64,000 bases of DNA from Humidesulfovibrio sp. (GTDB lineage Bacteria; Desulfobacterota; Desulfovibrionia; Desulfovibrionales; Desulfovibrionaceae): NCBI RefSeq assembly GCF_030689645.1, contig NZ_JAUYFU010000048.1, positions 62,001-126,000 on the forward strand, in the 5' to 3' direction. Made by a program: the position numbers and the translations under genes. Positions 1,866 through 5,780 of the stretch are shown in pieces (position 1 is the stretch's first letter; every line of letters begins with the position of its first letter). The notes beneath the pieces were generated by a model that was given only the letters and a program-made list of their open reading frames with translations, was not told where the DNA came from and did not search any database.

Positions 1866-2112
1866 GAAGGGCTCCTTGTGGTGCAAATGGAAACGTCTGT
1901 GTAATGCCAGCGCCTCGTGCTGTCAATCGAGCTGGTTCCCTTGAACGAAAGCTCCATTGGGAATTGCATGTTTTGCATCGTCTTTGACCGTCTTCTTGCC
2001 GAATGACAAGAAAAAGTTTAGATGATGCTGGCCATGTCGGGGATATTCTGAACTCTGGCGCTCACGGATGCCTGTCGACCCTTGGCGAACCTCTATCGCC
2101 GGTGATGATCTG

Positions 2113-3072
2113 ATGAACAGCGCTGACGAAGGAACACAAAAGAACCTCTCGCACCCCATTGCGGACAGGTATCTGGAACACCTCACAGTGGAGCGTGGAC
2201 TATCGGAAAACACCCTAGTGGCCTATGGTGCGGACATAGGCGCCCTGCTTGCCTTTTTGGACGGCCTTGGCGTGAGCCTGGAGCGCTGCATCACGCGGCA
2301 CCTTTTCCTGTACCTGACCCACCTGCGCGCCAAGAAACTGGCCGCCACCAGCTTGGCCCGGCACCTTTCCACGGCGCGAGGCCTGTTCGCCTTTGCCGTG
2401 CAGGCACGGCTTCTGGATGAGGACCCCTCTGCCCTACTGGAAAGCCCCAAGCTTCCAGCCCAACTGCCTGAATTCCTGACCCAGGCGGAAATGGACTGTC
2501 TTCTCGACCAGCCCGATCCCAGCACGAATCTTGGCTTCCGCGACCGGGTGATGTTGGAACTGCTCTACGCCGCTGGCTTGCGCATCTCAGAGCTCATCAA
2601 TCTGGCGCTGGGGGATTTTGATCCGCAGACTGGAATTTTGCGTGTGTTTGGCAAGCGCGCCAAGGAACGCCTGGTTCCCATCCATTATGCAGTCCAGCGC
2701 CTGCTCTGCGACTATCTGGACCACAAGCGCCCGGCCTTCCAGCCATTGTGCCAGCAGATATTTCTGAACCGCTCAGGCAAGGGGCTCACCCGGCAAGGGG
2801 TATGGAAACTCATCAAGCGCTACGCCGAGGCCGCAGGAATTCGCCGCAGCATTTCCCCGCACACTTTTCGGCACACCTTTGCGACCCATCTTCTTGAGGG
2901 CGGAGCGGACTTGCGCACAGTGCAACTGCTCCTTGGGCATGCCGCCATTAACGCCACGGAGATTTACACCCACATCCAATCAGGACGGCTCATGCGCATT
3001 CACGAACAGTTTCACCCGCGATCAACGGCCTTCGCAGCCGCCAAACCCCGGCGCACAGGAACAAAAGAATGA
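2113..3072 (+). CDS. xerD: Tyrosine site-specific recombinase, XerC/XerD type
   Basis: Tyrosine recombinase of the size used to resolve chromosome dimers (319 residues from this start). The N-terminal SAM-like core-binding domain covers about residues 15-105. The catalytic domain shows the full set R157 (GLRISEL), K181, H250 and R253 (PHTFRHTFATHLL), H276 (LLGHAAI) and nucleophile Y285 (EIYTHI). The start is uncertain: ATG at 2113 was chosen because the N-terminus then matches Xer length, but neither it nor ATG 2068 has a strong ribosome site. Nothing nearby suggests a phage or integron, so a housekeeping Xer role is inferred. The stop overlaps the next gene by ATGA. Confidence 0.85.
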   Translation: MNSADEGTQKNLSHPIADRYLEHLTVERGLSENTLVAYGADIGALLAFLDGLGVSLERCITRHLFLYLTHLRAKKLAATSLARHLSTARGLFAFAVQARLLDEDPSALLESPKLPAQLPEFLTQAEMDCLLDQPDPSTNLGFRDRVMLELLYAAGLRISELINLALGDFDPQTGILRVFGKRAKERLVPIHYAVQRLLCDYLDHKRPAFQPLCQQIFLNRSGKGLTRQGVWKLIKRYAEAAGIRRSISPHTFRHTFATHLLEGGADLRTVQLLLGHAAINATEIYTHIQSGRLMRIHEQFHPRSTAFAAAKPRRTGTKE

Positions 3073-5780
3073 ATGCCCCTATCCGTCCGCGACCTAAAAC
3101 GGTCATAACAGCCCACGCCAACGCCGACTTCGACGCCCTGGCGGCCATGATAGCGGCCAATCGGCTATACCCTGACGCCGTTCTTATCTTCCCAGGCAGC
3201 CAGGAGAAGAACCTCCGGAATTTCTACATTCAAAGCACCACGTATCTGTTCAACTTCAAATCCTTCAAGGATATCGATCCGGCTGATGTAGAGCTGCTCG
3301 TCATCGTGGACACCCGGCAGAAGTCCAGAGTGTCCCATGTACAGGCTCTGGTGGACAAGCCGGGAATCCGCATTCACGTGTTTGATCACCACCCCGACAC
3401 AGAGGAGGACGTAGAGCCGGAATACTCCTGCGTTAAAAACTGGGGTTCCACCACCACCATCATCACCCATGAACTCATGGACCGAGGCATCGCGCCAACA
3501 ATTGAAGAAGCCACTGTGCTGGGATTGGGCATTTTTGAGGACACGGGCTCCTTCACATTCAATTCAACCACGCCGGAGGATTTTCGTGCAGCGGCCTGGC
3601 TCCGTCAAAACGGCATGGACCTGGGCGTCATTTCTGACCTTCTCGCACGCGACCTTTCCTCAGAGCAGATCCGGGTGCTTTCTGAGCTTATTGATTCAGC
3701 CAAGACCCATGACTTTCACGGTATCGAAGTCACCGTCGCCGAGGTTAGCACCGAAGGTTTCATTAGTGATTTCGCATACCTTGTTCATAAGTTCATCGAC
3801 ATGGAGAATGTCCGCGTCATGTTCGCCCTGGGGCGTATGGGCGACCGGATTCACATCGTTGCGCGTTCGCGCGCCAGTGATGTCAATGTGGGCTTCATCT
3901 GTTCATTTTTTGGCGGCGGTGGTCACGGGTATGCCGCCTCGGCCACGGTAAAGGACAAGACTTTGAGCCAGGTTCGCGATGAGCTCCTCACTCTGCTCTA
4001 CTCCCACATCAATCCCCAGATCACGGCAGCGAGCCTCATGTCCAAACCGCCCAAGGTGATAGAGTCAAACCGCTCCATGGCGGACGCGGCGGAACTAATG
4101 ACCCGCTTCGGACTCAAGGCTGTGGCGGTTGTTGCGCCTGGCACCATGAGTTGCGTTGGCCTGCTGGAGCACCGTACGGCGGACAAAGCCGTAGCCCACG
4201 GTCTGCGCCATGTGCCGCTGGTGGAGTATATGCTTGTGGATTTCGCCAAGGTGGGGCCGACCGCAACGCTGCATCAAGTAATGGAAATAATCATAGGCAA
4301 GCGGCAGCGCTTCCTGCCGGTGGTTGAGGCTGATCAAACCGTGGGCATCATTACGCGCACGGACTTGGTTAATCTCCTTGTTGAAGAATCTGCACGCATC
4401 TCCGAGACGCTCATGCCCGACCCCAAGCGCGACCGGAACATCCGTTCAGTGATGCGCACGCGGTTGCCAGGCTCAATTCTGGCTCTGTTGGAACAGGCCG
4501 GAATGCTTGCCAAGGAGCTTGGATTCAAGATCTACGCTGTTGGCGGTTTCGTGCGTGACATTCTTCTGGGTCGGCAAAATCTGGACATTGACCTCGTTGT
4601 CGAGGGGGATGGGATTCTGTTCGCCAAGGCGCTGGCCAAGGCCCGCCAGGGCCGCGTGAAGGAACACCAGAAGTTTAAGACAGCCGTTGTAGTTTTTCCA
4701 GACGGACATCGCATAGATGTGGCCACAGCACGTCTGGAGTATTATGAATACCCGACTGCCCTGCCAACGGTTGAGCTTTCGTCCATTAAGATGGACCTGT
4801 ACCGCCGCGACTTTACGGTTAACGCCTTGGCCCTTAACCTTTCGCCCGGGCACTTCGGGCAGCTCATGGACTTCTTCGGCGCACAGCGGGACATTAAGGA
4901 AAAGACAATTCGCGTACTGCATTCGTTAAGCTTCGTTGAAGACCCTACGCGAATTCTTAGAGCAGTGCGATTTGAGCAGCGCTTCAATTTTCGGATCGAT
5001 GGCCAGACATTGCGTCTTATAAAAAATGCAGTGCAGTTGAATCTGTTCTCCAAGCTTTCAGGCGCTCGGTTGACACATGAAATGCAGCTCATTCTGAACG
5101 AGGAAAACGTTCTGGAGTGTCTGAACCGCATGCAGGATCTCAAGCTGCTCGCCACCATCCATCCGCAGCTGAATCTGGATGCGGACAGGCTGCGAGTGCT
5201 CATGGAACTGCGCAAGGTACATGATTGGTATACCCTGCTGTATCTTGAACCGTCTGTGAACACCTGGAAACTGTATATGCTTGGCCTGACAATGGGTACG
5301 GAGCGTGATCAGCTTGAGCAGATCTGCCGGCGTCTGCGTTTTTCCGACCGCGAGTTGCGTGAATTTCTCTCCTTGCGCGATCATTTGGGCGAAGCCTTGG
5401 CACGTCTCATGACCTGGCAGGAAGCCCAGTCAAACATGAGTGAGATCTATTTCACCCTGGATCCCTTACCGGTGGAAGGTGTGCTTTTTCTGATGGCTCG
5501 CAGCCGACGCGAAGTCATGCGCAAGAATATCTCCCAGTATCTGACGCGACTGCGCAGTCAGGAATTGCTCATCGACGGATCCGACCTAAAGGCGCTCGGG
5601 CTCAAGAGCGGACCGGGTTTTGCCAAGATACTGCAAAAGGTTCGCGCTGCAGCCATCGATGGCCTAACAACAACACGCGAACGTCAGCTTGAGCTTGCCA
5701 AAACCTTTATGGAAGGACTACGCATGGAAGGGTATGATGAACAGCCGCACGGGCCGCGCCCAAGACGTTCAACTAAATAA
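3069..5780 (+). CDS. DHH-CBS-CBS-tRNA nucleotidyltransferase (CCA/A-adding) fusion
   Basis: A 903-residue, four-part protein. Residues 1-315 are a DHH/DHHA1 phosphoesterase module: HANADFDA at 16-23, DHH at 106-108 and FGGGGHG near 281-287. Two CBS domains follow at about 324-375 and 388-440. From about 475 comes a class II nucleotidyltransferase head with GGFVRDILLG (492 on) and the catalytic pair D506/D508 in DIDLV, then RRDFTVNALAL and an RNA-binding tail. Known fusions of this type in deltaproteobacteria are annotated as tRNA nucleotidyltransferase or poly(A) polymerase. tRNA 3'-end CCA or A addition is therefore the likely job, with the DHH part perhaps a nuclease and CBS an adenylate sensor (inference). 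Its ATG overlaps the xerD stop. Confidence 0.88.
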   Translation: MNAPIRPRPKTVITAHANADFDALAAMIAANRLYPDAVLIFPGSQEKNLRNFYIQSTTYLFNFKSFKDIDPADVELLVIVDTRQKSRVSHVQALVDKPGIRIHVFDHHPDTEEDVEPEYSCVKNWGSTTTIITHELMDRGIAPTIEEATVLGLGIFEDTGSFTFNSTTPEDFRAAAWLRQNGMDLGVISDLLARDLSSEQIRVLSELIDSAKTHDFHGIEVTVAEVSTEGFISDFAYLVHKFIDMENVRVMFALGRMGDRIHIVARSRASDVNVGFICSFFGGGGHGYAASATVKDKTLSQVRDELLTLLYSHINPQITAASLMSKPPKVIESNRSMADAAELMTRFGLKAVAVVAPGTMSCVGLLEHRTADKAVAHGLRHVPLVEYMLVDFAKVGPTATLHQVMEIIIGKRQRFLPVVEADQTVGIITRTDLVNLLVEESARISETLMPDPKRDRNIRSVMRTRLPGSILALLEQAGMLAKELGFKIYAVGGFVRDILLGRQNLDIDLVVEGDGILFAKALAKARQGRVKEHQKFKTAVVVFPDGHRIDVATARLEYYEYPTALPTVELSSIKMDLYRRDFTVNALALNLSPGHFGQLMDFFGAQRDIKEKTIRVLHSLSFVEDPTRILRAVRFEQRFNFRIDGQTLRLIKNAVQLNLFSKLSGARLTHEMQLILNEENVLECLNRMQDLKLLATIHPQLNLDADRLRVLMELRKVHDWYTLLYLEPSVNTWKLYMLGLTMGTERDQLEQICRRLRFSDRELREFLSLRDHLGEALARLMTWQEAQSNMSEIYFTLDPLPVEGVLFLMARSRREVMRKNISQYLTRLRSQELLIDGSDLKALGLKSGPGFAKILQKVRAAAIDGLTTTRERQLELAKTFMEGLRMEGYDEQPHGPRPRRSTK

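Follow-up and report, generated by a model that had tools for sequence, protein, structure and literature searches.

A 64,000-nucleotide stretch of a Humidesulfovibrio genome (contig NZ_JAUYFU010000048.1, positions 62,001 to 126,000; hereafter the window) encodes a 903-residue protein, P0001, in which Pfam matches and motifs place a class II tRNA nucleotidyltransferase on one chain with a DHH-DHHA1 phosphoesterase and a pair of CBS domains. Our preferred interpretation, to which we give a probability of roughly three in four, is that CCA repair is divided here between two enzymes and that P0001 is the one adding A, its DHH half likely being an active phosphodiesterase and its CBS domains probably binding adenine nucleotides. 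The combination of domains is not new. The native CCA-adding enzyme of Thermotoga maritima carries Nrn and CBS domains that are dispensable for CCA addition, and in some delta-proteobacteria the CC- and A-adding enzymes are separate (PMC8208693, Jones 2021). It is also common in the phylum, a fused-type match at E<1e-100 being present in 167 of 198 sampled genomes, this one included, and, with P0001 as the query, in all 61 genomes of the order. Among open-licence papers, a search joining DHH, CBS and tRNA nucleotidyltransferase returned nothing relevant, and the papers found on neighbouring topics do not deal with what the DHH half does.

The open reading frame (ORF) is real rather than a chance frame, given its near-full-length match to the NCBIfam model NF041569, A-adding tRNA nucleotidyltransferase (P0001 residues 12-879 on model positions 3-875 of 880, E 3.3e-269), and the existence of homologous ORFs that are 46-89% identical. 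It starts with ATG and overlaps the stop of the upstream gene by 4 bases. The first-pass annotation of this DNA had read the same one-chain layout, with catalytic motifs intact; the layout is borne out by the ORF, by Pfam and by a scan of the first CBS domain cut out on its own, and D20/D22, DHH 106-108, GGGGH and D506/D508 are all in place. In the C-terminal half we also find GGFVRD (492-497), RRDFT (579-583) and EDPTR (624-628), while a tRNA_NucTran2_2 match (21.9 bits) falls under its Pfam cut-off. The solved structures nearest to this half are the T. maritima CCA-adding and the Aquifex A-adding enzymes (organisms per PMC3925840). P0001 also resembles Aquifex aeolicus AaL, the Geobacter A-adder cited in PMC8208693 and NF041569 in that the alignment takes in its N-terminal half.

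Conservation was assessed in a set of 65 fused proteins (30 from a phylum list, 30 from an order list, four named relatives and the window). Two are duplicates (the window with L103, L006 with L104), leaving 63 distinct sequences, four pairs of which are more than 95% identical. The set consists of the top scorers of the family, with 40-100% identity to P0001, and is not a random sample. The named relatives come from Desulfovibrio, Desulfovibrionaceae and Desulfocurvus assemblies (80-89% identity) and from Pseudodesulfovibrio (61%, partial). The class II core and the EDxxR template (G492, G493, R496, D497, D506, D508, D550, R579, R580, D581, E624, D625 and R628) are kept in 63 of 63.

A flexible loop is required for A addition and is short or absent in bacterial CC-adding enzymes (PMC3925840, PMC7014341). 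Counting residues by alignment column from the third carboxylate to RRD, we find a span of 29 (D550 to R579) in P0001 and in four other fused proteins. A PF01743 search of the genome at E 0.001 gave two matches, P0001 and a 379-residue protein, P0002, on another contig (C66:9077-10213; loci L002 and L073), in which the span is 15. The best NCBIfam match of P0002 is the Escherichia coli-type CCA model PRK10885, at 199 bits against a cut-off of 451; its main stretch is shifted by 18 residues relative to that model, at the flexible-loop region, and its HD domain scores slightly under cut-off. The first-pass annotation had proposed looking for a second CCA-adding gene, and there is indeed a second nucleotidyltransferase, of the loop-less, CC-adding type. 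P0001 resembles A-adding enzymes of the NF041569 type both in its intact loop and in coexisting with a loop-less CC-type enzyme, although here that partner is E. coli-like, 379 residues long and equipped with an HD domain.

This pairing recurs across the phylum. We surveyed partners in 67 of the 167 fused-gene genomes, of which 27 came from the 30 top-ranked partner loci and the other 40 from lower rows among the matches listed, and the loop span is 14-21 in all of them except G026. Another 25 genomes have no A-adder-sized NF041569 match, or a partial one, several of these assemblies being incomplete. Nine of the 25 have a single loop-containing enzyme, CCA-type with a span of 30-31, as the sole such enzyme of a genome without the fused gene; in 11 the one copy measured, at the fetched locus, encodes a poly(A) polymerase (PAP). 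The remainder are G100 (A-adder-like), G071 and G124 (loop-less), G031 (masked) and G115 (no match). Six further phylum genomes (G042, G064, G054, G011, G085 and G049) lie outside the 167 and are left out of the fused-gene comparison. Apart from G071 and G124, a loop-less partner goes with the fused gene and a single loop-containing enzyme with its absence, as one would expect were the A to come from the fused protein. We infer, with good support from these comparisons, that P0002 adds CC and P0001 adds A76. A role in tRNA 3'-end maintenance, as first suggested, is well supported by the family match, the intact A-addition loop and the loop-less partner; for the alternative suggestion of tRNA turnover we found no evidence. 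In 30 loci (of 48 tRNA matches), every tRNA reported by ARAGORN ends in an encoded CCA. Since the tRNA genes read all encode CCA, the pair probably mends tRNA ends rather than making them.

Two observations concern the partners themselves. In a tree with weak nodes, used solely for the grouping of E. coli-like partners, P0002 and the partners of its family are separated from most other loop-less partners and grouped with an E. coli-like enzyme of G102 that does contain the loop, which with moderate support suggests a separate origin of a CC-adding enzyme. In seven partners (L086, L087, L089, L090, L096, L171 and L174), a Q is aligned at the third catalytic carboxylate (E/D).

Turning to the DHH half, the catalytic positions of the DHH domain (H16, D20, D22, D81 and D106-H107-H108, with D158 just beyond the domain end) are invariant in all 63 distinct fused proteins, as are H103, E157, T159, G160, D234, H240, N247, R266, S267, G283-H286 and A289-A292. 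R268, R260, P109 and F41 are each present in 62. The DHHA1 motifs read RSR (266-268) and GGGGH-xx-AASA (282-292, with GGGGH at 282-286). Conservation of the catalytic and of the additional residues marks the DHH half, as judged from its sequence, as an intact and distinct DHH-DHHA1 subfamily and not a relic. The invariance also argues for an active enzyme with a substrate of its own, and we consider it moderately well supported that this half is a metal-dependent phosphodiesterase acting on short RNA or nucleotides. The possible nuclease of the first-pass annotation stands as far as its intact active site goes.

To ask which of these residues are particular to the fused type, we aligned 24 sequences: 15 fused proteins, five standalone DHH-CBS proteins and the four other DHH proteins of the same genome, which by eye and alignment are an NrnA-like protein, an Mn-pyrophosphatase, RecJ and one encoded before polA. 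F41, H240 and N247 are confined to the fused type. H103 occurs also in one standalone protein and R260 in two; P109 is shared with the polA-neighbour protein and R268, as aligned, with RecJ, while G43 and E46 recur in the pyrophosphatase, and G43 also in the polA-neighbour protein. A small tree places the DHH domains of fused and standalone proteins on one side (split support 0.90, inner nodes weak) and NrnA, the pyrophosphatase, the polA-neighbour protein and RecJ on the other. The standalone DHH-CBS-CBS proteins, five of which were fetched from the same order (L163-L167, open frames of 436-487 residues), are 27-30% identical to P0001 over approximately residues 3-445, but have no nucleotidyltransferase, lack H240, N247, F41, P109 and R268, and carry AGSA where P0001 has AASA. 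By eye, a large glycogen phosphorylase-like protein adjoins the standalone gene in three of these five loci.

P0001 is like NrnA, TmPDE, DhhP and the catalytic domain of GdpP in its DHH and GGGGH motifs and catalytic residues, and the catalytic residues of NrnA in both DHH and DHHA1 are present. It differs from these nanoRNases and dinucleotide phosphodiesterases in having GGGGH-xx-AASA (AASA in 63 of 63) and RSR (R268 in 62 of 63), where the motifs given for NrnA are GGGH-xx-ASG and R-x-R-x-R (PMC9757072). The NrnA-like protein of the same genome has GGGGH-xx-ASG and lacks the H240 and N247 that are invariant in the fused type. Its gene adjoins, by eye, a truB-like neighbour, and another DHH gene adjoins a polA-like one. 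Given these two genes, we rejected the idea that the DHH half stands in for an absent nanoRNase. A search of this genome, given as 99.99% complete, for PF00929 (RNase_T) at E 0.001 was negative, and the same search was positive in 10 of 14 control genomes; this absence says nothing about the DHH half.

Both CBS domains are real and form a tandem pair. Scanned within the whole protein, the first gives a weak match, but as an isolated segment it reaches 27.8 bits against a cut-off of 24, and the corresponding segment of eight other family members also exceeds 24 bits. By column counts it is without a T-x-x-D ribose-type motif. In the second CBS domain the T of this motif is present in 58 of 63 proteins (S in three) and the D in 61 of 63. 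Structure prediction is informative for this region only: the model of residues 1-454 has a mean predicted local distance difference test (pLDDT) score of 56.7 and is good only at approximately 321-430, the CBS pair, which matches solved CBS pairs at ~2 Å, among them AcuB with AMP or ATP (adenosine mono- and triphosphate). Fold searches with this model gave DHH matches with template modelling (TM) scores of ~0.24-0.30 by query length, which contribute little beyond the sequence match and to which we give no weight. AlphaFold2 on the whole chain, with six sequences, gave a pLDDT of 54.3 and a predicted TM score of 0.30, at which the geometry between the two active sites is unreadable. The T-x-x-D motif and the AcuB-like modelled pair make energy regulation of P0001 through its CBS domains, as the first-pass annotation had it, possible; they hint, weakly, that the pair senses adenine nucleotides.

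The mechanism that we propose is as follows. P0002 would restore C74 and C75 on a damaged tRNA, after which the P0001 nucleotidyltransferase, judging by its family, loop and partner, would add A76. The DHH-DHHA1 half, from its invariant residues, would most probably be catalytically active, cleaving very short RNA or nucleotide products as a metal-dependent phosphodiesterase. The weakest step is the last, in which the CBS pair may bind an adenine nucleotide and couple energy state to one or both activities. A addition as such would not need the DHH-CBS half, since DHH-less relatives exist and the Nrn and CBS domains are reported as dispensable in T. maritima, which together indicate that nucleotide addition is independent of it.

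Several observations weigh against this interpretation. The NF041569 score of P0001, 895.8 bits, is below the curated cut-off of 1440, in which it differs from the A-adding enzymes of that model; 197 of 198 phylum genomes likewise fall short and one reaches it. Our claim is therefore that P0001 looks, and would work, like an A-adder, not that it is formally a member of the model. The partner in G026 is intermediate in loop length (25), the loop-less enzyme of G102 is accompanied by an E. coli-like one in which the loop is present (33), and in G071 and G124 a loop-less enzyme is present with the fused gene not found. DHH-less A-adder-like enzymes occur in G011, G049, G085 and G054, with more distant ones in G028, G065 and G128. 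In T. maritima one AaL-type enzyme builds all of CCA by itself (PMC3925840), so the restriction of its homologue P0001 to A is something that we infer. Finally, an NrnA-like protein and an Mn-pyrophosphatase are encoded elsewhere in the genome, which leaves no obvious gap for the DHH half to fill.

The T. maritima case raises the question of whether P0001 is instead a complete CCA-adding enzyme, with the second gene redundant or serving another substrate. The T. maritima enzyme is the best solved relative of the C-terminal half and is alike in joining Nrn, CBS and nucleotidyltransferase; it differs in that CCA there comes from one enzyme, whereas the genome of P0001 has a CC-type partner. Retention of the loop-less partner in 66 of 67 examined fused-gene genomes, with an intermediate one in the 67th, and the nine genomes in which a single loop-containing enzyme goes with lack of the fused gene, speak against this explanation, which we regard as unlikely. 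Far less probable still is that P0001 is a poly(A) polymerase that serves RNA decay and whose DHH half removes the short oligonucleotides so produced. Joining a nanoRNase to a tailing enzyme would make sense, the Pfam name is PolyA_pol, and there is a match to the pcnB model (97.6 bits, cut-off 305.65), but neither P0001, P0002 nor any row of the fused set carries the PAP signature described in PMC8208693, which is present in 12 separate loci of other phylum genomes.

Other explanations concern the DHH half. It could be a pyrophosphatase that removes the pyrophosphate of nucleotide addition under CBS control, and CBS-regulated pyrophosphatases exist. Membership of the DHH superfamily fits, and Mn-dependent pyrophosphatase models do match, all far under cut-off; but P0001 has the DHHA1-type GGGGH that is missing from the pyrophosphatase already encoded separately in its genome, and the solved structures closest to the DHH half are those of a DHH family protein (DhhP), of GdpP and of a RecJ-like protein, so that we think this quite improbable. 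Equally poor, in our estimation, are the chances that this half serves dimerisation as a scaffold devoid of catalytic activity: relatives without DHH-CBS exist, but a scaffold would not need the catalytic and other residues that are invariant in 63 of 63 homologues. A more speculative elaboration, which we do not think likely but would place somewhat above these, makes the fused DHH half a nuclease subfamily of its own for tRNA 3' ends, and the whole protein a one-chain trim-and-repair switch for tRNA charging that is gated through the CBS pair by AMP/ATP. The DHH half would trim damaged or mismade ends, or short trimming products, through a substrate pocket of H103, E157, H240, N247, R266-S267 and AASA, and the nucleotidyltransferase would rebuild A76. 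The DHH-less relatives are natural comparisons for the function of the DHH half. Should energy state, through the CBS pair, prove to control the repair of tRNA ends, tRNA charging would be tied directly to ATP level in most of the phylum genomes sampled.

Features of the fused gene and its upstream neighbour in the window
Feature	Position	Strand	Evidence
XerD-type tyrosine recombinase gene	2068..3072	+	TIGR02225, 332.9 bits (cut-off 329.6); conserved neighbour
Complete ORF, A-adding-type DHH-DHHA1-CBS-CBS-tRNA nucleotidyltransferase, 903 aa	3069..5780	+	ORF, Pfam, NF041569, motifs
DHH domain, residues 10-154	3096..3530	+	PF01368, 38.5 bits, passes cut-off
DHHA1 domain, residues 238-308	3780..3992	+	PF02272, 22.2 bits, under cut-off; motif conservation
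First CBS domain, ~residues 320-376	4026..4196	+	PF00571 as cut-out segment; strand/helix pattern; column counts
Second CBS domain, residues 386-438, T429-x-x-D432	4224..4382	+	PF00571, passes cut-off
Nucleotidyltransferase head, residues 488-615, carboxylates D506/D508/D550	4530..4913	+	PF01743, 97.1 bits, passes cut-off
Flexible-loop region, residues 555-578, full length	4731..4802	+	Alignment; between third carboxylate and RRDFT
PolyA_pol_RNAbd domain, residues 640-702	4986..5174	+	PF12627, passes cut-off

The surroundings of the fused gene are partly conserved. Sixty-four fused loci were viewed, four of which have no room for an upstream gene; a co-directional xer gene lies upstream in 48 of the 60 with room. 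Among the 12 without such a call, L128 and L131 look Xer-like by eye. In G028 (L217) an xer gene lies, by eye, directly upstream of the DHH-less A-adder-like gene, in the same order as in the fused loci. We considered a functional link between the xer gene and the fused gene and found nothing beyond synteny, and the xer gene is not part of the proposed mechanism.

In G064 (L212, L220) there is only a 254-residue DHH-matching frame together with a nucleotidyltransferase that contains the loop. The fused gene may have been broken there and replaced by a full CCA enzyme, or this may be an effect of assembly. In several of the loci L016-L042, a frame that by eye is trpS-like or scpA-like lies downstream of the fused gene.

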